From: a virus
Direction: 5' to 3' (one strand)
Virus record (IMG/VR): IMGVR_UViG_3300034022_000288
Span: 1-35,484 of that record
Length of the DNA stretch: 35,484 nucleotides
Below are positions 3,599-28,015 of this stretch, piece after piece. Position 1 is the stretch's first letter. Each line of letters opens with the position of its first letter. Below the pieces are notes generated by a model. It was not told the DNA's origin, made no database searches, and saw only the letters and a program-made list of their open reading frames with translations. The position numbers and the translations under genes are program-made.

Positions 3599-4590
3599 TA
3601 CAACTCCGCATCTGCTTGGATGGAGGATGTGTTGCTGCTTGATTGAAGAACACCACCCTGACCTACTGGACCTGCCGCTGCTGGTTGTGCATAAGCACTG
3701 TAACTATACGCAGTTGTTTTAGTTGTCATGGCTCCAATAGAGCCACCGCCTGATGTGCTGTCAACAATCATTGATACTTGGGCAAGGTCGGGTTGTCTGC
3801 GCATTGTTACGGGAAAAGCAGTTGCCCAATAAAAAATGTTTGCTGTTGCGTAGTAACCCATTGCCCAACCTAATGACCCGCCTGTAAATACTGCTTTGTA
3901 AAAGTACCGTTGGCATAGGGCTAGTTCTATACCGATTGGTCGTTGCTCAAACGGGGTTGGCTGGTAGTTCTGTTCCAACTGGACACCCGTAATCTCAAAG
4001 TAATCAGCAGCACCAGCAGTGCCAGTAGGTGTGTAATCAAAAAGAATTCTTGCAGCAGTTGCAGTAGTTGGGACAACAACAGTACGAGTTACATATTGCC
4101 AAGAAGTAGTCAAAGTAGTAGAGATATTTGTAACAGATGCAGATGTCGGTTGAGTGGTAAATCCTAAATCTGTTCCTGTCCCAAATTCAATCTGTGTATC
4201 TAAAATAGACCCACTAAAGTTTGCACCTTTACGAACATAAAAAGACAAAGTAACCGTCTTGCCTGCCAGTGCTTTGACCGTAATACTTTCAAAAGTCCTG
4301 CCCATATACAAGACGCCCAAATCTGTATTTCCAGAAGTTCTTTGAAAGCGGGCGCAATAGTTAAAACCAGAAAGTTCTGAAGGAACCATTGCTTGTTGGC
4401 TTAAAGAATACCCTGCTACTGCTGACCTAAAAATACACCATCTATCAGCAGTATAGGAAGTTGTGTTTGCGATACCTGTAAATGATGTGCCTCGTTGCCA
4501 AACATCAAACCCGCCGTTAATCAGGACATTGCGGAACCCCAAACCCGCAGGCAACAACGCAGACGAACCCAAACCACTAGAAATAGCCAT
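3598..4590 (-). CDS. Tail-fibre protein with carbohydrate-binding-like jelly-roll domain
   Basis: A 330-residue protein. After a short start (SSGLGSSALLPAGLGF), residues about 20-60 read NVLINGGFDVWQRGTSF and then TADRWCIF, the hallmark of phage and prophage fibre proteins that open a carbohydrate-binding-module-like beta sandwich. Further matches are VTLSFYVRKGANFSG, YVTRTVVVPTTATAARI, YFEITGVQLEQ and PTPFEQRPIGIELALCQRYF, which is the usual order to the end of that domain (about residue 235). The remainder is a smaller beta-rich tip. Probably binds host surface glycans. The family pattern is clear; the ligand is not known. Confidence 0.85.
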   Translation of the reverse strand: MAISSGLGSSALLPAGLGFRNVLINGGFDVWQRGTSFTGIANTTSYTADRWCIFRSAVAGYSLSQQAMVPSELSGFNYCARFQRTSGNTDLGVLYMGRTFESITVKALAGKTVTLSFYVRKGANFSGSILDTQIEFGTGTDLGFTTQPTSASVTNISTTLTTSWQYVTRTVVVPTTATAARILFDYTPTGTAGAADYFEITGVQLEQNYQPTPFEQRPIGIELALCQRYFYKAVFTGGSLGWAMGYYATANIFYWATAFPVTMRRQPDLAQVSMIVDSTSGGGSIGAMTTKTTAYSYSAYAQPAAAGPVGQGGVLQSSSNTSSIQADAEL

Positions 4591-17700: not shown

Positions 17701-18068
17701 CGAAAATACCTATCGTATGCGGAGATTAGTTGTGCAAGGTCATCATTAGGGTATGCGTAATACAACTGTTTAATTTGGTCCATTACAGGGTCACCAAAAG
17801 AATACTGTTGTGGTGGCATATCTGCAACAAAGTTGTTGTTCATTGGCATGTCAGGTCGTTGTGTTGGTGCGTTTAAGTCAACAACAGAACCAGGCATAGG
17901 CCCAGGACCACGAGACGGAGATTGCGGTTGCATGTCTGCAGGTGATGCACCCATAGGGACAACTGATTGTGTTGCAAGTTGTTTACCTGCCTCACCATAC
18001 CCTTGTCCTTTGGCAGCCATTTTTGCTACAGGATTTCTTAAATCGCTACGGTTTGAATAGTCAGCCAT
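17697..18068 (-). CDS. Small disordered protein between portal and giant protein
   Basis: A 123-residue protein rich in Pro, Gln, Gly, Met and Asn (ADMQPQSPSRGPGPMPGSVV), with a short ordered C-terminus (DQIKQLYYAYPNDDLAQLIS). The start overlaps the portal stop by one base and the stop overlaps the giant gene by four. Disordered proteins here may act as assembly linkers or plugs between portal and internal core. No family is recognised. Confidence 0.65.
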   Translation of the reverse strand: MADYSNRSDLRNPVAKMAAKGQGYGEAGKQLATQSVVPMGASPADMQPQSPSRGPGPMPGSVVDLNAPTQRPDMPMNNNFVADMPPQQYSFGDPVMDQIKQLYYAYPNDDLAQLISAYDRYFR

Positions 18069-19927
18069 TATTGCCCTCCAAGTCGACCAGCAAGACTAAG
18101 TACAGAACCAGGTGAACCAGGTTGTGCAGCAGCACCAGCAATTGCTGGACCGCCTGGTGGCATACCGCCACCTCCGCCAAGTTGTGCAAGCATTGCTTCA
18201 AGACCGCCAGGTCCTTGTGGTGGGCCGGCTGGTTGTTCAGCTCCCATTCCTGGTGGGGCCAAGCCTGGCATTGTTTCGGGTGCGCCAGCTGGTGCAGGTG
18301 TTGCTTGACGTTCTTGTGCGCGTTTCTGTGCAGCCATGATTGCTTCGGAAAGATTCATTTTGTTAGATGCAACTTGTGTTGCAATGTATGCAAGGTCATC
18401 TGGCTGGTATGGACCGTTAGGGTCTGCTGCTTGTGTCTGAATAGAAGACAACAGTGCGGCTTCGATACCTTCAGAAACAAGACGGTCTTTTTCTAGTTCT
18501 GGGTCTGCAATGAGAGGGTCTGCTTCACGGGCTGATTCTTTAGACATAAGCCCTGTACCAAGACGCTGACCTAAACCAACAATCAGGCTGTTGACATCTG
18601 AACCTGCTGCGGAGTATGCAACATAGTGGAAATCTGTTTCCCATAGTTTATTTGGTGTGTAATCTTTAATGCCACCACCCATGCCTGGCATGAAGAATGA
18701 TTTGCCGGTGTTGCCCCAATAGTTTTTTTCGATTGCAATAGCAATTTTGTCTTCTTCAATCATGGATGATGAGAAGATTTCTTGTGCTTCTTGAACTCGG
18801 AAGTCTACGGTTGCTGCAAGGATTGAATCCCCACGGCGACCTGTACGGATGTTCGTTCCTGATTCGCCACCGAACTCGGCAGGGATGGCACCTTCAAGGC
18901 GTTCTTGGCGTTCAAGTCTGTCTAGTGCAACGTCTGTTTTGTAGCCAGGGTTTGACTGCAACTGTTGAATGTCGCCACCTTTTACAACACCCAGCTGTCC
19001 TGATTTGCCTTCAGCGATTTGAATAATCTCTGGGTTTTCACCAGGTCGGGCAATGAGGTATTCATCTGGGAAGATGCCACGTTCGATAGCAATTTCAGTT
19101 AGTGCTTGCAACCTTGCACGGGTGTAATACATACCGAGAAGACCATCAAACTGTCCGTGTGCTTTGTCAAGGGTAATTCTTTGCGGAACGATTACAAGTG
19201 GCATACCAGTGCGGTTGACAATGCGGGATAGTTCTACAGATGGGGAACCAAAGTACGCACTACCGCTAATAGGGTCGCGTTCTTTTTCGTATCCCATAAC
19301 AAGAGTTACTACTTCGTCTGCTGATACATATTCGAGGATTGTGAACATGTCATCTTGTTGTGGTTTACCCACACGAAGGGTGCCATCTACTGCATAACCA
19401 AAGTTTTGTGTCAACCATTGGTAGCTGCGACTGTACGAGAAGATGCAATCCATTGGTACTGGGTTGTCTAGGTCTACTGATGGTGCAGGGAAGGTATCTA
19501 GTGGGTTGCGTAGCTGCCACTCTGGGATGAGTTTGTCAAAGTTGGGCTTGATATAGATAGGTGAGTTGCTGTATGCAAGAAGGTGACGCGCACGTCGACG
19601 CATCTTCATATTCATACGGTTCTGGTCCCAAATAGAAAGCATTGCGCGCTTGCGGTCACGGGCCATCTGCATTGAACGGTCTTGGCCTTCACGCAAAGCA
19701 GGGAAATAAGGTACCGGCATTGTCGAAGATACACGCATAGCCATCTGGTCTAGACCTTGTACCAGTAGGTTTGCAACGGAAGATTTAGTGTTACGGTCCA
19801 ATTCGTTCAATGGGACAACCACGTCACCGTTAGCGAGTTGACGGACTTGGCGCATTTGTGAAAGGACAGGACCTTGTGCTGTTACACGTTGGCGGTAAAG
19901 GTCAACTATTTCTTCGATTGATTTCAT
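18068..19927 (-). CDS. Portal protein
   Basis: A 619-residue protein directly downstream of the large terminase, the usual place for the portal. It has the mixed alpha/beta portal layout: N-terminal helical wing (IEEIVDLYRQRVTAQG), a region ending YIKPNFDKLIPEWQLRNPLD, a stem/clip region with GYKTDVALDRLERQERLEGA, and the typical turn IPAEFGGESGTNIRTGRRGD before a long helix. The last 80 residues are Pro/Gly/Ala-rich and disordered, an extension beyond the core fold. It forms the dodecameric channel at one vertex for packaging and ejection. Assignment by order and pattern is strong. Confidence 0.88.
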   Translation of the reverse strand: MKSIEEIVDLYRQRVTAQGPVLSQMRQVRQLANGDVVVPLNELDRNTKSSVANLLVQGLDQMAMRVSSTMPVPYFPALREGQDRSMQMARDRKRAMLSIWDQNRMNMKMRRRARHLLAYSNSPIYIKPNFDKLIPEWQLRNPLDTFPAPSVDLDNPVPMDCIFSYSRSYQWLTQNFGYAVDGTLRVGKPQQDDMFTILEYVSADEVVTLVMGYEKERDPISGSAYFGSPSVELSRIVNRTGMPLVIVPQRITLDKAHGQFDGLLGMYYTRARLQALTEIAIERGIFPDEYLIARPGENPEIIQIAEGKSGQLGVVKGGDIQQLQSNPGYKTDVALDRLERQERLEGAIPAEFGGESGTNIRTGRRGDSILAATVDFRVQEAQEIFSSSMIEEDKIAIAIEKNYWGNTGKSFFMPGMGGGIKDYTPNKLWETDFHYVAYSAAGSDVNSLIVGLGQRLGTGLMSKESAREADPLIADPELEKDRLVSEGIEAALLSSIQTQAADPNGPYQPDDLAYIATQVASNKMNLSEAIMAAQKRAQERQATPAPAGAPETMPGLAPPGMGAEQPAGPPQGPGGLEAMLAQLGGGGGMPPGGPAIAGAAAQPGSPGSVLSLAGRLGGQ

Positions 19928-19973: not shown

Positions 19974-21950
19974 TCACGAGTTAAGCCACGAAGGTCGCCA
20001 TTGTCGGGGTGGAAGTTTAGATGTAGACAGGTTCGGGATGTTGAGAACAGCCATCCATATCGACATCACAATATCGGTGCCGTTCTTTTTGTCGGTAGTC
20101 CACGAAGTTAACTCCCCAACAGCAGCCATAGTCTTCCAAGTTATACGGTTATTCGGCAAACGTATATTGCCTGTCCTGAAAATCTGAGGAAGCAACGCTT
20201 CAACACCAAGCTTCTCATCCAGTTTGTTACGGCTAGTGGTGTGAGGAAGGATGTTGACCATGCTACGGGATGCCCATTTACGTACAAAGTCATGCTGCAA
20301 AAGGAACCGTTGTGCGGCGTTGATTTCAACAATCCAATGGGAAATTGGGTACCCCAAACGGAAGGACCGTTCCTGCCATTCATCCATAATGCCTGAATAC
20401 TCACCTGTGGTGGTGTTGTACCCCAGTAGTTCTTCAGCGGTTAGTTTGCAACGCTCGATATCCACTACATGATAAAGGTTTAGTTCTGGTTGGTACAGCA
20501 TCCACGTTAAAGCCCAGAACTTTGTAGGGGAAGGGTCAATGGATACTACGGATAGAACAGGCGGGGCTAGTCCTGCGGGGATTTGCCCATGATTACGGGT
20601 GTCGTCAATACAACCAGGGTATATAACCCCGTCATCTCCTTGGCCGCCATATATCCAAGTCTTAGATATGAGGTATCCGTCTAGTTCTAATTCTTCTTGC
20701 TGATAGACAACACGGAAAATGTCGGGTTTGGAGTGCCTAATAAACGATAGGTCTTTCCAAGGTAGACGTTTAGGGTCAAGTAACGGCCCGTCAGGGTAGG
20801 CAGGGGAGTCAAAACGACGGGATTCTTTGCCGGTATCAAGCTCTGGGTAGTACGCCTGATACACAATATGGCGGTACTTGGATGATTTTAGGGGTTCCAT
20901 AGCGTCAACCTGTTCAGGTGTCTCGATATCTGACCCGTCGTAATCTTCATCAAGGTCGTCATACGAAACTTTGGCTAAACAATGGGCGTACAAGTCACCT
21001 GACCCTAGACGCTGACCGATAACACATAGCAAACCACCTGGGTCTACACGGGCTTCCGCGACACCATCCCAGCGTTCCAACAGTTTGTCTCGTGAAGCTG
21101 ACTCACGGGTGTTGTCGGGGGAGGCTACGTCGTCAAAAAGGCAAAGGTCGGCGCGGTGTCCAATGAATTCTGCTTCGATACCGTAGGCGCGTACGGTTGG
21201 TTCTTTGTTGTCCAACCCGTTGCCACCGATTTGTTCCACAACAAACTCGTCTGCCCTCCATAACGCTCCTTTATCTGTAGGTCTGAACCTGCCATAGTCA
21301 ATACTTAGACAACCCAAAGCATCCTGGGCTAGTCCTTTCTTGACAAGCATCGGGTCGGGAAGCATAGGCATAGGTCGTTCAAGGGTTTCACGGATACGGC
21401 GGGAGTACAGCTTTGCCATGTTCTGCGATACAGACCCAATCATTATTCGAATGTCTCGTTTACGGCAGATAGCCCACACCGCAACATCATGGAACAACGT
21501 TGATTTACCAGCACCAGGGGGGACATTGATTACTACGAATTCTTTTTCTTCTGATTCGAGCCATTCAACAATTTTCAACGCCGCATCCACCTGCCAAGGT
21601 GAAGGTACACGACCAAGGTAATACTCACGGAAAAACCCGAAGTCTTCCAAGCCTCGTAGGGCTTCTTCACAGAGATGGTCATGCGGGATAGCCGATGGTA
21701 AATCGATGGCTTCCATGAAAGCGTTGTAGGAGTCGTTTTGGACTCCCCCGCCACGGGCTGTTGACTTGTTACCTTTAAGGGTTTCAAGGTCGTGGGATGC
21801 TTGTGCAGCTTTTGCTTTAGACAGCCATTTAGAACCTGTGTTGATGTGGATACCAGCAACACGGGAAGCATCTCCGATGGTTTTACCGGAGGAGATAGCA
21901 GCAAAGAATTTAGCTTTGTCTGCTGGGGAGACAACTCGTTTTGTACCCAT
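19974..21950 (-). CDS. Terminase large subunit with N-terminal helix-turn-helix
   Basis: A 658-residue packaging motor. ATPase motifs: Walker A VPPGAGKST (about 143-151), Walker B LCLFDD (269-274), and a coupling-type Ser/Asn segment GSVSQNMAKLYSRRIRETL (172-190). The nuclease half has VVSIDPSPTKFWALTWM with its acidic strand and later HWIVEINAAQRFLL. Residues 7-45 (SPADKAKFFAAISSGKTIGD, then VAGIHINTGSKWLS) look like a helix-turn-helix of the type usually found in the small terminase subunit. No separate small terminase gene was recognised nearby, so the DNA-recognition function may be fused here. The enzyme cuts concatemers and pumps DNA into the procapsid through the portal. Confidence 0.93.
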   Translation of the reverse strand: MGTKRVVSPADKAKFFAAISSGKTIGDASRVAGIHINTGSKWLSKAKAAQASHDLETLKGNKSTARGGGVQNDSYNAFMEAIDLPSAIPHDHLCEEALRGLEDFGFFREYYLGRVPSPWQVDAALKIVEWLESEEKEFVVINVPPGAGKSTLFHDVAVWAICRKRDIRIMIGSVSQNMAKLYSRRIRETLERPMPMLPDPMLVKKGLAQDALGCLSIDYGRFRPTDKGALWRADEFVVEQIGGNGLDNKEPTVRAYGIEAEFIGHRADLCLFDDVASPDNTRESASRDKLLERWDGVAEARVDPGGLLCVIGQRLGSGDLYAHCLAKVSYDDLDEDYDGSDIETPEQVDAMEPLKSSKYRHIVYQAYYPELDTGKESRRFDSPAYPDGPLLDPKRLPWKDLSFIRHSKPDIFRVVYQQEELELDGYLISKTWIYGGQGDDGVIYPGCIDDTRNHGQIPAGLAPPVLSVVSIDPSPTKFWALTWMLYQPELNLYHVVDIERCKLTAEELLGYNTTTGEYSGIMDEWQERSFRLGYPISHWIVEINAAQRFLLQHDFVRKWASRSMVNILPHTTSRNKLDEKLGVEALLPQIFRTGNIRLPNNRITWKTMAAVGELTSWTTDKKNGTDIVMSIWMAVLNIPNLSTSKLPPRQWRPSWLNS

Positions 21951-23478: not shown

Positions 23479-23516
23479 GTTCAATGGTTGAACAGTGGCA
23501 CGTATGTCTATATAGT
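23479..23516 (+). promoter_or_regulatory. Rightward sigma-70-type promoter with overlapping operator palindrome
   Basis: A -35 TTGAAC (23488-23493), 17-base spacer and -10 TATAGT (23511-23516) give a near-consensus promoter reading into the plus-strand operon, with predicted start near 23523. The palindrome GTTCAATGGTTGAAC (23479-23493) overlaps the -35 box, as repressor operators do. A single-promoter layout fits the continuous gene order downstream. Confidence 0.72.
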
Positions 23517-23523
23517 TCATGTA

Positions 23524-23538
23524 TCGGAATTATTCCGA
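23524..23538 (+). promoter_or_regulatory. Palindrome at predicted transcript start (operator or leader hairpin)
   Basis: TCGGAATTATTCCGA is a perfect 7-1-7 inverted repeat lying right at the expected +1 of the rightward promoter and 16 bases before the AGAAAGGG ribosome site of the first gene. As DNA it may bind a repressor. As RNA only a shortened stem could form, because the palindrome has no loop. Confidence 0.55.
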
Positions 23539-23560: not shown

Positions 23561-23725
23561 ATGAATAAATGGGAGAGAGAGCCGCAAGCGTTCACGTGCG
23601 ATTATTGCGGCGGGGATAAGGCCACGAATATGACCGACATGGGCGACATAGTTTGCGACCCGTGTCTAATCGGGCGGCCTATCTATGAGGCTCCGAGCGC
23701 GGCACAATCGCCGTGGGGTCACTAA
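23561..23725 (+). CDS. Small double-CxxC zinc-ribbon protein
   Basis: A 54-residue protein, first gene of the rightward operon. The start at 23561 is set by AGAAAGGG 10-15 bases upstream; an upstream in-frame ATG at 23519 lies before the predicted transcript start. It reads FTCDYCGGDKATNMTDMGDI, then VCDPCLIG: two CxxC pairs (about residues 12-15 and 32-35) that should bind one zinc ion, as in small zinc ribbons that bind nucleic acid or polymerase. The stop overlaps the next start (TAATG). Function unknown; early host-takeover or regulatory role is possible from position. Confidence 0.78.
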   Translation: MNKWEREPQAFTCDYCGGDKATNMTDMGDIVCDPCLIGRPIYEAPSAAQSPWGH

Positions 23726-24002: not shown

Positions 24003-24052
24003 TCGCGGGGTGGTATGGCCACTATCGCGGGGTTCGATTCCCCGCCCGCGCA
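24003..24052 (+). ncRNA. tRNA-like element 1 (acceptor + D-arm-like + T-arm, no anticodon arm)
   Basis: The acceptor-like stem CGCGGG (24004-24009) pairs with CCCGCG (24045-24050). A 4-bp hairpin GTGG/CCAC (24010-24022) has loop TATGG. The T-arm is CGGGG-TTCGATT-CCCCG (24028-24044), with the canonical T-loop pattern including the G-C closing pair. Only 5 bases join hairpin and T-arm, so there is no room for an anticodon arm. A second hairpin TGCCC/GGGCA (24056-24070) follows and then the ribosome site of the next gene. It may be an RNase P/RNase Z substrate or a structured mRNA spacer. No CCA is encoded. Confidence 0.7.
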
Positions 24053-24093
24053 CTATGCCCACTACGGGCAGAACTACTAGAAAGGGTAGCAAC

Positions 24094-24519
24094 ATGACAA
24101 CATACGAACAGACAGACAAGGCCACGGGGTTATCGTTCCCGTGTACGTGTGGCGGGTGCCGTGGGCGTTCCGCGAATCTCACTGACATATGGGATAGCGG
24201 CCAGATTCCTAACAAGGTTGAGGGCTATTACTTTTCGGAATCGACACGCCGATTCTTTCATTCCCGCATTCTTTCATTCCGTCACTTAGACAATGGCGCG
24301 CTTGCCGTGCGGGAATCACTCGCGGGAGACATGAACAATGAAACACGGGTGCATCGTGTGACGGTATGGTGCCGCTATGGGCATATTCTGCCGCGTGATA
24401 TGGCCGCCGATACGTTCACTAATGGGACTAAGGCCGTGGGTGCCATACGTGCATTGCCTGCCGATTCCGCGCAAGCTTGCGAATGCCACGGGTGCCAACT
24501 TGACAAGGCAGGCCGCTAA
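24094..24519 (+). CDS. Cys-rich hypothetical protein (141 aa)
   Basis: The start at 24094 (MTTYEQTDKATGLSFPCTCG) follows AGAAAGGG by 9 bases; the frame is open further upstream through the tRNA-like element but that part is not credible coding. An N-terminal FPCTCGGCRGRS and a C-terminal ACECHGCQLDKAG give two clusters of three cysteines each, likely zinc-binding. The middle has a beta-rich segment (HRVTVWCRYGHILPRDMA). No family recognised. Stop and next start overlap by one base. Likely an early protein of unknown role. Confidence 0.75.
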   Translation: MTTYEQTDKATGLSFPCTCGGCRGRSANLTDIWDSGQIPNKVEGYYFSESTRRFFHSRILSFRHLDNGALAVRESLAGDMNNETRVHRVTVWCRYGHILPRDMAADTFTNGTKAVGAIRALPADSAQACECHGCQLDKAGR

Positions 24520-24752
24520 TGGATAACGGGGTTCGATACATGATTCATAAGATAGGAACGCCACGCCTACAACGTACGACAATGGGCGGGATAGTACCCG
24601 CGGGCGAATGGTACCGCGCCAATACGGGCGAATGGGTAGCGGCGAAAGATGCGCACGTGTTCGTCAAGTGGGAACGCAAGATATACAACTTGCCCGATGG
24701 CGGCGAATGGATAGAAATATACGTGAACGTTCCCGTAGAGGTAACGCGATGA
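24519..24752 (+). CDS. Hypothetical small protein (77 aa)
   Basis: Starts MDNGVRYMIHKIGTPRLQRT and continues with beta-rich sequence (EWVAAKDAHVFVKWERKIYN; GGEWIEIYVNVPVEVTR). It overlaps both neighbours by one to four bases. No motif, membrane segment or signal. Compact size suggests a single beta-barrel or SH3-like domain, but that is only composition. Gene call supported by coupling and by the continuous frame. Confidence 0.65.
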   Translation: MDNGVRYMIHKIGTPRLQRTTMGGIVPAGEWYRANTGEWVAAKDAHVFVKWERKIYNLPDGGEWIEIYVNVPVEVTR

Positions 24753-25018
24753 CGCGCCGATACTCTCCTAATCATCCCGCCGTGAAAAGCTCGCCGCACG
24801 TGATGACCCCGCAACAGTGGTCACGCCTATATAGGTGGCCGCTTGCCGCTATCGGTGGCGGGTTCACCCTTGCGATGTTGGGGTGGTTCATGCCGCCTAT
24901 CGCGCTATACGGCCTGCCGATATCGTTCCTATGGTGCCTACCACCCACCGGAATCTGTCTCGCGGGGTTCGCCCGTTGTCAGGCTATCTACGAAATAGAA
25001 AAGGAATACGACAAGTAA
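24749..25018 (+). CDS. Small membrane protein, two transmembrane segments
   Basis: An 89-residue protein; ATG at 24749 overlaps the previous stop (ATGA). N-terminal basic tail (MTRRYSPNHPAVKSSPHVMT), then two hydrophobic spans around residues 30-48 (PLAAIGGGFTLAMLGWFM) and 51-74 (ALYGLPISFLWCLPPTGICL), and a charged C-terminus (IYEIEKEYDK). An in-frame extension to 24608 lacks a ribosome site. In an early operon a membrane protein could act in superinfection exclusion or host membrane control; holin is less likely away from the lysis genes. Role unproven. Confidence 0.68.
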   Translation: MTRRYSPNHPAVKSSPHVMTPQQWSRLYRWPLAAIGGGFTLAMLGWFMPPIALYGLPISFLWCLPPTGICLAGFARCQAIYEIEKEYDK

Positions 25019-25026
25019 CCCCGACA

Positions 25027-25072
25027 GGGTAGGCGGTATGGCCGCGGCGCACGTTCGATTCGTGCCTACCCA
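25027..25072 (+). ncRNA. tRNA-like element 2 (no anticodon arm)
   Basis: Acceptor-like GGGTAG (25027-25032) pairs with CTACCC (25066-25071). Hairpin GCGG/CCGC (25033-25045) has the same TATGG loop as element 1 and shares the 9-mer GGTATGGCC with it. The T-arm is GCACG-TTCGATT-CGTGC (25049-25065). Stem sequences differ from element 1 while pairing is kept. The following hairpin is TGCCCG/CGGGCA (25076-25096). It lies between the membrane protein gene and the sliding-clamp gene. Confidence 0.72.
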
Positions 25073-25123
25073 CAATGCCCGCCACAATGACGGGCAGACA
25101 ACCATAGAGAAAAGGAAACCACT

Positions 25124-25738
25124 ATGAAAATTACACTAACCACCGCGCAAGCGGTAGCCCTAGCCAAAGGTATCGCGCCCGCGATATCCACGGAACCAAT
25201 GAAATACAACCTACATTCTATTCAGATAGAGACAACGGGCGAGTATGCCACGTTCACTGCTACTGATGGATACCGCCTCCATAGAATCACTGTCCCACAG
25301 ACAGACATTGACCCTATCCCTACGTTTCAAGTAGGCGGGGTCGAGCTAGTAGGCGCGTTACTTGGTACCGCTAAGGCCATAGGTAAGGGTAGTGGGGACA
25401 TTGTATTGACCACCGATATTGGCGGCAAGGTAATCGCCACGGGCGCGGGCGTAACAATGAACGTGCCTATTGTAAACGTAGAGTTTCCCGCTTGCGCGGC
25501 CATTCTTGACGTAGGTATCGAGACAGAATCGGGCGCAAGTTATGACACTGTGTACCTTGCGGAAATTGTGACGGCCGCGGGGCATATCAGTGGCAAGGCT
25601 AAGAAGAATGTCTATGACGATTCGCAACTTGTCAAGATAGAGAACATCCACCCCAAGAAACCTATGCACGTTACCGCGCAAAGTGTTGCCACCGGAATGC
25701 AATTCCACGGGGTACTGATGCCACGCCGCGCGAGCTAA
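25124..25738 (+). CDS. Short DNA sliding-clamp (DnaN-like) protein
   Basis: A 204-residue protein with an AGAAAAGGAAA ribosome site. Residues 41-52 (YATFTATDGYRL) match the strand and turn ATDG-[HY]-RL of bacterial beta clamps, preceded by the usual YNLHSIQIETTG. The C-terminus (MHVTAQSVATGMQFHGVLMP) matches the clamp end YVxMP. At about 55% of the length of a 370-residue beta clamp it has room for only two of the three domains. It would encircle DNA and tether a polymerase, with more subunits per ring than the usual dimer. No polymerase or clamp loader is in this window, so partners lie elsewhere or are host proteins. Other possibility: a clamp mimic that diverts the host replisome. Confidence 0.75.
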   Translation: MKITLTTAQAVALAKGIAPAISTEPMKYNLHSIQIETTGEYATFTATDGYRLHRITVPQTDIDPIPTFQVGGVELVGALLGTAKAIGKGSGDIVLTTDIGGKVIATGAGVTMNVPIVNVEFPACAAILDVGIETESGASYDTVYLAEIVTAAGHISGKAKKNVYDDSQLVKIENIHPKKPMHVTAQSVATGMQFHGVLMPRRAS

Positions 25739-25745
25739 TCGCGTC

Positions 25746-25793
25746 ACGCGGGGTCAGTGGTGGCCTTGTCACGTTCGATTCGTGACCCGCGTA
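25746..25793 (+). ncRNA. tRNA-like element 3 (no anticodon arm)
   Basis: Acceptor-like ACGCGG (25746-25751) pairs with CCGCGT (25787-25792). D-arm-like hairpin GGTC/GGCC (25752-25765) has loop AGTGGT, close to a real tRNA D-loop. The T-arm is GTCACG-TTCGATT-CGTGAC (25768-25786). Two bases join them. A second hairpin CGCC-TACG-GGCG (25797-25808), with a UNCG-type tetraloop, follows, then AGAAAGGG and the next gene. Confidence 0.7.
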
Positions 25794-25839
25794 CCGCGCC
25801 TACGGGCGTGACTATTACCACTAGAAAGGGTAACTACCA

Positions 25840-26004
25840 ATGAAAACTAAGATACTAATAACTATCGAACACCCCGACGATACGTCGGCCGATGGCCTTA
25901 TCACTTATCACTTCAACCCGATGTTGAATGACATGAACCATGACTTAGGCGAGGGATACTCTGTCACGCTTGAACGCCTAACGGAAAAGTTGGGAGCTTA
26001 CTAA
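25840..26004 (+). CDS. Hypothetical small protein (54 aa)
   Basis: ATG at 25840 follows the recurrent AGAAAGGGTA leader. It reads MKTKILITIEHPDDTSADGL and ends TLERLTEKLGAY. The stop overlaps the next ATG (TAATG). Acidic, alpha/beta, no motif recognised. The ribosome site and overlap make this a solid gene call; function unknown. Confidence 0.7.
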   Translation: MKTKILITIEHPDDTSADGLITYHFNPMLNDMNHDLGEGYSVTLERLTEKLGAY

Positions 26005-27690: not shown

Positions 27691-27740
27691 GTAGCCCCTA
27701 TCTCCCGCTGACCCCTTCCGGCGGTTGAGATAGGGGTTAC
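27691..27740. terminator. Long bidirectional terminator between convergent operons
   Basis: GTAGCCCCTATCTC (27691-27704) pairs with GAGATAGGGGTTAC (27727-27740), with one G-T pair in 14, and an inner CCGC/GCGG. It lies between the stop of the rightward operon at 27670 and the stop of whiB at 27737, in fact overlapping the whiB stop codon. Flanking T-rich tracts (TTACTTATGTTTC on plus; AGAATAACAGATT side on minus) allow termination in both directions. Confidence 0.8.
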
Positions 27741-28015
27741 TTATGTTTCACGCCTAGTTTCCAGTTCGGGTCATACAACCAACGTTCGTGCGGCGTTAGT
27801 CCACCCCATAGGCCATACCGCCACCGTTCGTCTTGTTCACAGTTCATTGCGTATTCGAGACATTCAGCTTTCACCGGACAATGGCGGCAGATAGCCCGCC
27901 CATACAGATAGTGGTCTGTCTTCTTGTCTGTTGCTTCGTTAGGCGGGAAGAAATAGTCTGTTGGTTTATCGAGACAGGCAGCTTGTTCATGCCAGCTGTT
28001 GTTATTTCCTGCCAC
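27737..28015 (-). CDS. WhiB-family transcription regulator
   Basis: A 92-residue protein beginning with GTG at 28015. It has the four WhiB cysteines: C14 (QAACLDK), C43 and C46 (AICRHC) and C52 (KAECLEYA), which hold a [4Fe-4S] cluster, followed by the turn GLWGG (68-72) and a short C-terminal region. WhiB proteins bind the primary sigma factor and alter promoter choice; they are confined to actinobacteria and their phages. It is the last gene of the leftward right-arm operon, two genes past SSB. Likely acts in host takeover or phage promoter control. The start is tied to the overlap with the upstream gene. Confidence 0.93.
   Translation of the reverse strand: MAGNNNSWHEQAACLDKPTDYFFPPNEATDKKTDHYLYGRAICRHCPVKAECLEYAMNCEQDERWRYGLWGGLTPHERWLYDPNWKLGVKHK

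Follow-up and report, generated by a model that had tools for sequence, protein, structure and literature searches.

RNase P and RNase Z cut mitochondrial transcripts at the transfer RNAs (tRNAs) that lie between genes, and in the early polycistronic messenger RNA (mRNA) of phage T7 the host enzyme RNase III cuts at hairpins between genes. RNase P also accepts non-tRNA substrates, among them Escherichia coli operon mRNAs, the phage T4 gene 32 mRNA and the phage C4 and M3 RNAs (PMC11143913), while mascRNA is a substrate first for RNase P and then for RNase Z (PMC11693755). Type II hammerhead ribozymes (RF02276) occur in phage intergenic regions (PMC3088659). Here we describe three tRNA-like elements without an anticodon arm in a 35.5-kilobase (kb) virus record (IMG/VR record IMGVR_UViG_3300034022_000288, positions 1 to 35,484; this whole stretch is referred to as the window). 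Comparison with related elements leads us to conclude that they are probably cis-acting RNA processing sites, cut by host RNase P, at which the early mRNA would be split at the borders of gene groups.

Each of these systems shares part of this arrangement. The tRNA-like ends of MALAT1 and NEAT1 (MEN beta), known as mascRNA and menRNA (RF01684), resemble the elements in having an acceptor stem, a T-arm, a reduced D-arm and two G residues that dock the T-loop, and mascRNA likewise has no proper anticodon loop and is embedded in a longer RNA. They are, however, mammalian nuclear RNAs that keep an anticodon-like stem and stand as a single copy near a transcript 3' end, whereas the phage elements occur in many copies between cistrons. 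The resemblance is a likeness and not descent, and the elements lie outside RF01684; by analogy, they probably work as mascRNA does. Mitochondrial punctuation also sets tRNA shapes between genes, but its marks are real tRNAs, whereas the phage elements have no anticodon arm and are unable to decode. The bacterial and phage substrates show host RNase P acting on non-tRNA transcripts, in some cases at intergenic structures, but they are isolated, whereas the elements recur in many phages as a dedicated structure at a fixed place behind stop codons. The T7 sites depend on another enzyme and a long duplex rather than on a tRNA elbow, and type II hammerheads, found here in the same position in two phages, cleave themselves, whereas tRNA mimics would have to rely on an enzyme of the host. 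No described family of this kind was found in the open-access literature searched, and the RNA family appears to be undescribed; tRNA punctuation and mRNA cleavage by RNase P are already known.

Three tRNA-like elements in an early operon

The window comprises a leftward late block and a rightward early operon that starts at about 23.5 kb. The initial annotation of this DNA had described three tRNA-like RNAs without an anticodon arm in the operon, and the structures are present as it described them, with coordinates trimmed by 1-2 bases:

24004-24050, + strand: tRNA-like element 1 (predicted fold; covariance model 41.8 bits)
24004-24009/24045-24050, + strand: element 1 acceptor stem, CGCGGG/CCCGCG
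24010-24022, + strand: element 1 D-like arm, 4 base pairs (bp), loop TATGG
24023-24027, + strand: element 1 linker
24028-24032/24040-24044, + strand: element 1 T-stem, with T-loop at 24033-24039 (a G-C pair closes TTCGATT)
25027-25071, + strand: tRNA-like element 2 (predicted fold; covariance model 70.3 bits)
25027-25032/25066-25071, + strand: element 2 acceptor stem, GGGTAG/CTACCC
25033-25045, + strand: element 2 D-like arm, 4 bp, loop TATGG
25049-25053/25061-25065, + strand: element 2 T-stem, with T-loop at 25054-25060 (a G-C pair closes TTCGATT)
25746-25792, + strand: tRNA-like element 3 (12 bp of acceptor plus T-stem; covariance model 24.9 bits)
25746-25751/25787-25792, + strand: element 3 acceptor stem, ACGCGG/CCGCGT
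25752-25765, + strand: element 3 D-like arm, 4 bp, loop AGTGGT
25768-25773/25781-25786, + strand: element 3 T-stem, with T-loop at 25774-25780 (a G-C pair closes TTCGATT)

Each element is 45-47 nucleotides (nt) long and combines an 11-12 bp acceptor plus T helix with the T-loop TTCGATT and a GG in the D-like loop; the acceptor pairs, the 4-bp hairpins with GG loops and the G-C-closed T-arms are all as previously annotated. Only 2-5 nt separate the D-like arm from the T-stem, leaving no room for an anticodon arm. The described pairings closely match the predicted minimum-energy folds of all three elements (z-scores of -1.8 to -2.6 each). An architecture defined by an acceptor of at least 6 bp, an acceptor plus T helix of at least 11 bp and a D-like hairpin with a GG in its loop occurs three times in the window, against a mean of 0.025 and a maximum of one per sequence in 200 dinucleotide shuffles. 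When a covariance model with ten seed sequences, one of them element 2, was run unfiltered on the window, only the three elements rose above noise, the next score being 10.2 bits. ARAGORN called no tRNA at the window elements, and no Rfam family reached its gathering cut-off there; the best resemblance of element 1 was to mascRNA-menRNA (24003-24051, 24.9 bits, E = 0.034; cut-off 42.5). The class as a whole also goes unrecognised by ARAGORN and Rfam, with mascRNA-menRNA as the nearest Rfam model.

Compensatory change across relatives and subtypes

In records that share the clamp or the terminase gene of the window, elements are kept at the same gene borders, with stems that have changed but remain paired. 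The loss of T-loop and pairing in relatives that would have spoken against the initial annotation was not found, since relatives keep both and carry compensatory changes, in line with its claim of covariation. When subtypes were mixed, MAFFT aligned the stems wrongly, and for this reason the linker in the seed of the covariance model, R1, was padded with N; one altered row was left out of the model. Within this seed of ten elements (A5), 10 of 15 pairs show double changes, and 100% of cells are paired, as compared to ~40% with slid partners. A search of 187 sources with R1 revealed three further subtypes: B, with the T-loop TTCGCCA; C, with the core ACTGGCAGACA and no D-stem; and D, with the core ATGGTCGNAG, which led to cultured phages.

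Sets independent of pairing were collected with patterns of D-loop and T-loop letters only, with five free positions. Among the copies fetched in this way, a fixed 11-bp architecture accommodates 77 of 79 for type C with at most one mismatch, and a fixed 12-bp architecture does so for type D in 69 of 73 from IMG/VR and 85 of 90 from genomes. IMG/VR contributed 64 distinct copies of type D; in these, 96.7% of cells are paired (60.8% when shuffled, at most 56.5% when slid), doubly changed cells number 246 as opposed to 67 in shuffles, and the covariation score is 0.88 rather than 0.18; compensatory change affects 10 of the 12 pairs across these diverse copies. The structure of the element is under selection. 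That the elements are functionless relics, whether decayed tRNA genes or remnants of attachment sites, is suggested by the resemblance of their T-arm and acceptor to those of tRNA genes, but compensatory change, fixed spacing from stop codons and the presence of several copies per operon make this highly improbable, and the covariation refutes it as a general explanation.

Position between stop codon and ribosome site

The window elements begin 6, 8 and 7 nt 3' of a stop codon, always on the coding strand. Most other adjacent genes in the operon overlap or abut, and the elements fill the three real gaps in this part of it, which agrees with the gene-group borders at which they had been placed. 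The second hairpin and ribosome site that had been reported 3' of each element were found at all three:

23488-23516, + strand: candidate promoter for the rightward early operon, TTGAAC-17-TATAGT (supported by the consensus match only)
23525-23537, + strand: leader hairpin CGGAATTATTCCG, close to where transcription from the candidate promoter would start
24056-24070, + strand: hairpin behind element 1
24079-24086, + strand: ribosome site AGAAAGGG before the ATG at 24094
24094-24519, + strand: first gene behind element 1, no family match
25076-25096, + strand: hairpin behind element 2
25124-25738, + strand: gene behind element 2, encoding a sliding-clamp-like protein (weak matches to DNA_pol3_beta_2 and to phrog_947, DNA polymerase processivity factor)
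25795-25810, + strand: hairpin behind element 3
25840-26004, + strand: first gene behind element 3

The ribosome sites behind the hairpins are of the GAAAGG type, (A)GAAAGGG or GAGAAAAGG, and are followed by ATG. The same layout opens the operon, where the leader hairpin is followed by AGAAAGGG and the ATG at 23561; the candidate promoter itself is weak, and promoter-like matches in its region are not more numerous than in shuffles. The resemblance between the layout behind an element and that behind a promoter is what would be expected if the element makes a new mRNA 5' end.

Across 75 distinct elements, counting upstream open reading frames of at least 35 codons, a stop codon lies within 25 nt upstream in 58, and at a distance of 6-8 nt in 36, as against ~2.5% for positions chosen at random. 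Downstream, 69 of the 75 have a start codon equipped with a ribosome site (median distance 47 nt), and a hairpin of at least 6 bp is present within the next 40 nt in 42, compared with 15% in shuffles.

In two phages that also carry elements, the same slot behind a stop codon and before a ribosome site is filled by a type II hammerhead:

G010:C1:17319-17386: type II hammerhead L448
G001:C1:18771-18835: type II hammerhead L449

Each begins 0-1 nt behind the stop codon that closes an open frame, of 98 codons in one case and 151 in the other, and leads into a Shine-Dalgarno sequence and start codon. The Rfam matches score 43.5 bits in the record of locus L032 and 49.5 bits in that of L137, a terminase relative of the window phage in which the order element-hammerhead-element is found within 1 kb. 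The argument rests on these two clear cases; six more matches are sub-threshold. Because two unrelated RNA devices, one of them a self-cutting ribozyme, fill the slot, it would appear to serve RNA cutting, and the hammerheads are the best evidence that sequence offers for such a role.

Elbow contact, helix length and 3' tail

Both RNase P and RNase Z take their measure from the surface of the tRNA elbow (PMC4919913, PMC11693755). In the elements, D-loop position 18 and T-loop position 55, the places of G18 and U55 in tRNA, covary as they do in the tRNA elbow: among 102 distinct type C elements the combinations are G-T in 92, A-G in 9, A-T in one and G-G in none, and once loci fetched by the TGG/TTC pattern are excluded, 13, 8, one and none remain, respectively. 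The A-G copies have differing acceptor stems and come from different phages or genomes (L095, L162, L302, L364); they therefore likely have more than one origin. The elements thus carry the tRNA-gene features of an acceptor stem, a T-arm with a TTCRA loop and a contact between D-loop and T-loop.

Of 75 elements, 70 have a helix of 11 or 12 bp, which fits an RNase P substrate of ~12 bp. Behind it, position 73 is a purine (R73) in all 77 elements of the type C pattern-only set and position 74 is C in 76 of the 77, as it is in 64 of 69 (IMG/VR) and 82 of 85 (genomes) type D copies. C75, by comparison, is avoided (3 of 77 in type C; 2 of 69 and 15 of 85 in type D), and a full encoded CCA end is rare, which says little against a likeness to tRNA genes, as many genuine bacterial ones do not encode it either. 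Pair 1-72 is mostly G-C (74 of 77 in type C). As for RNase Z, the elbow is present and CCA is avoided, yet C74 is kept, which may hinder this enzyme.

The elements might instead be mRNA structures that are not cut, acting as 3' caps, as 5' guards that keep off exonucleases or as docks for tRNA-binding proteins that control translation of the next gene. Their very stable predicted folds and their place between stop codon and ribosome site, or between stop codon and terminator in locus L163, would suit such roles. Simple hairpins suffice as caps, however, and this explanation, which we regard as rather unlikely, leaves the fixed helix length, C74, the elbow covariation and the self-cleaving ribozymes in the slot unaccounted for.

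Spread among actinobacterial phages and surroundings in the window

The class is present in the Mycobacterium phages Sheen, HINdeR, Konstantine and Journey13, in Streptomyces phage Endor1 and in the Gordonia phages MakoManhole and Morgana. In cultured phages the elements occupy gaps that carry no annotation, mostly only a few bases 3' of stop codons; Endor1 has 8 within 5.1 kb, all on the minus strand at 48,604-43,485, and Konstantine at least 7 on the plus strand at 38,871-42,205. A pattern scan of bacterial genomes returned 88 stretches, nearly all from Actinomycetota, and in Nonomuraea genomes (L397, L395, L377) up to five type D elements stand within 8 kb of chromosome. Several early hits of degenerate patterns (e.g. 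L038, L041, L074, L145) have neither tail nor slot and are likely chance matches or fragments.

A similarity search with DNA of the window region and with the clamp protein gave no match among named phages. The clamp-like protein, encoded between elements 2 and 3, is short (204 amino acids) and its beta-clamp matches are weak. Other landmarks of the window are:

18068-19927, leftward late block: portal
19974-21950, leftward late block: terminase large subunit
27737-28015, - strand: gene for a WhiB-like protein (cysteine pattern in the translation, no family search)

Judging from the WhiB-like protein and from the occurrence of the elements in actinophages, the host is probably actinobacterial.

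Some placements differ from that in the window. One element of L163 (6862-6913, - strand) lies directly behind a promoter-like TTGACA/TATAAT sequence. At L032, L192, L137 and L138, the hairpin behind the element overlaps or precedes a promoter-like TTGAC(A/C), and some of these elements may end one transcript just before the next starts. In L014 (~4090-4170, + strand), a GTGCTAG..CTAGCAC stem surrounds a degenerate T-loop-like hairpin behind a promoter-like TTGACA/TACACT sequence and is followed by ACTATG and a hairpin; this structure is possibly a promoter-proximal variant of the element.

Correspondence with published transcripts of L5

Cluster A mycobacteriophages carry a form of the element in their early leaders, with one strong model hit in D29 and further copies in Kerberos, RedRock, SWU1 and Journey13 (loci L206-L208 and L201):

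47977-48089 of D29 (L205 11978-12090), - strand: cluster A element

The counterpart in L5, whose position is deduced from D29 and SWU1, would fall at ~51,150-51,255 by distance from the right end or at ~51,130-51,230 by the SWU1 offset. According to Dedrick et al. 2017 (PMC5712189), the L5 Pleft RNA is abundant, stable and ~500 nt long, with a start at 51,672 and a 3' end at 51,140-51,190, and is partly processed to stable species of 100-400 nt with a common 5' end. From the Pleft start, the predicted element begins after ~418 nt and ends after ~525 nt. The same paper reports that deletions of 51,195-51,619 and 51,195-51,407 could not be purified, whereas deletion of 51,407-51,619 was obtained (PMC5712189); the two unobtainable deletions alone would cut into the predicted element. 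The sections relevant to this region make no mention of a tRNA-like structure (PMC5712189). Both the 3' end and the deletion data are consistent with RNase P cleavage at the predicted element. The D29 63-64 intergenic RNA described in the same source (PMC5712189) was considered as an element and rejected, as only the right-end copy is a strong model hit.

These data also bear on two other explanations. L5 transcripts fall by ~90% at the site of the homologous element, where the authors propose termination (PMC5712189). Together, element and hairpin form a two-stem unit, as would suit a terminator, an attenuator or an antitermination site like the put RNA of phage HK022. We consider such functions distinctly unlikely, as the elements are internal to operons and have closely spaced genes behind them, no U-run follows them, and neither termination nor a put-like activity needs the conserved tRNA elbow. 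At the three window elements no terminator-like site (hairpin plus U-run) was found, and intrinsic termination was rejected on the absence of U-runs.

Alternatively, the product itself could matter, with released tRNA mimics of ~45 nt serving as decoys or trans-acting RNAs that occupy RNase P or RNase Z, the CCA-adding enzyme, tRNA-modifying enzymes or the ribosome, a possibility that the initial annotation had raised for tRNA enzymes. Copy numbers per genome are high (8 in Endor1, at least 7 in Konstantine), and the L5 Pleft RNA is described as very abundant and stable, with a region that is toxic when cloned (PMC5712189). A strong promoter anywhere could make a decoy, however, whereas the elements, oriented with transcription, mostly hold a fixed place 6-8 nt behind a stop codon, with a hairpin and ribosome site next, and the hammerheads in the same slot release no tRNA mimic. 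We therefore think it unlikely that decoys are the purpose of the elements.

A model for splitting early mRNA

Of what the initial annotation had proposed, namely tRNA mimics that punctuate the early mRNA, the structure, conservation, position and elbow geometry are all strongly supported; cleavage is supported only indirectly, by the 11-12 bp ruler, the R73-C74 tail, the lock to stop codons, the hammerheads in the slot and the L5 data. That RNase P or RNase Z recognises and cuts the elements, and that mRNA stability changes as a result, is what we infer from these features.

Several observations weigh against cleavage by RNase P. U at position -1, which is favoured in bacterial pre-tRNAs, is avoided in the elements (13 of 231). 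A full RCCA is rare, and contact with RNase P should therefore be weakened. The cluster A element has an insert of ~70 nt between acceptor and T-arm, and the L5 authors attribute the 3' end of the Pleft RNA to termination (PMC5712189). Promoter-like sequence behind the element in L032, L192 and L137 is a further difficulty, as is a second element of L163 (3007-3056, - strand), which follows a stop codon and precedes a terminator-like hairpin, so that a role in the 3' untranslated region is possible there; the two placements in L163 suggest other uses of the same fold. Finally, positions 1-30000 of phiC31 contain no element, and the device is therefore not needed by all actinophages.

In the model of RNase P cleavage that we favour, the RNA behind the upstream stop codon would fold, once the ribosome has left, into a tRNA-like elbow comprising the 11-12 bp acceptor/T helix, a T-loop docked on the GG of the D-like loop and the R73-C74 tail. 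Host RNase P would read this fold as a pre-tRNA and cut at the acceptor's 5' end. The enzyme measures its substrates from the elbow and requires a T-loop or similar loop but can dispense with the D-loop (PMC4919913), a requirement that fits the strict T-loop and variable middle of the elements. RNase Z might then cut behind the discriminator, as CCA, a known antideterminant of this enzyme (PMC4919913), is avoided. The polycistronic early mRNA would in this way be split at gene-group borders, leaving a downstream piece that is headed by either the element or the next hairpin, followed by the ribosome site, and so resembles the promoter-made leader of the first gene; upstream and downstream genes would gain separate stability and dosage.

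More broadly, we lean towards the view that the elements form an undescribed, widespread class in actinobacterial phages and mobile elements, a modular RNase P cleavage mark that is interchangeable with hammerheads and divides early mRNA. If this is true, a large family of structured RNAs is missing from Rfam and from phage annotation, and an explanation is offered for a non-coding RNA that L5-like mycobacteriophages encode at their right end and that is abundant, toxic and apparently essential. The cultured phages D29, Endor1 and Konstantine make the class directly testable. The elements would represent a minimal natural RNase P substrate of ~41-47 nt and a case of tRNA punctuation of mRNA outside mitochondria, achieved without real tRNAs, and they would provide a simple, host-dependent means of setting gene stability and dosage within one phage operon.

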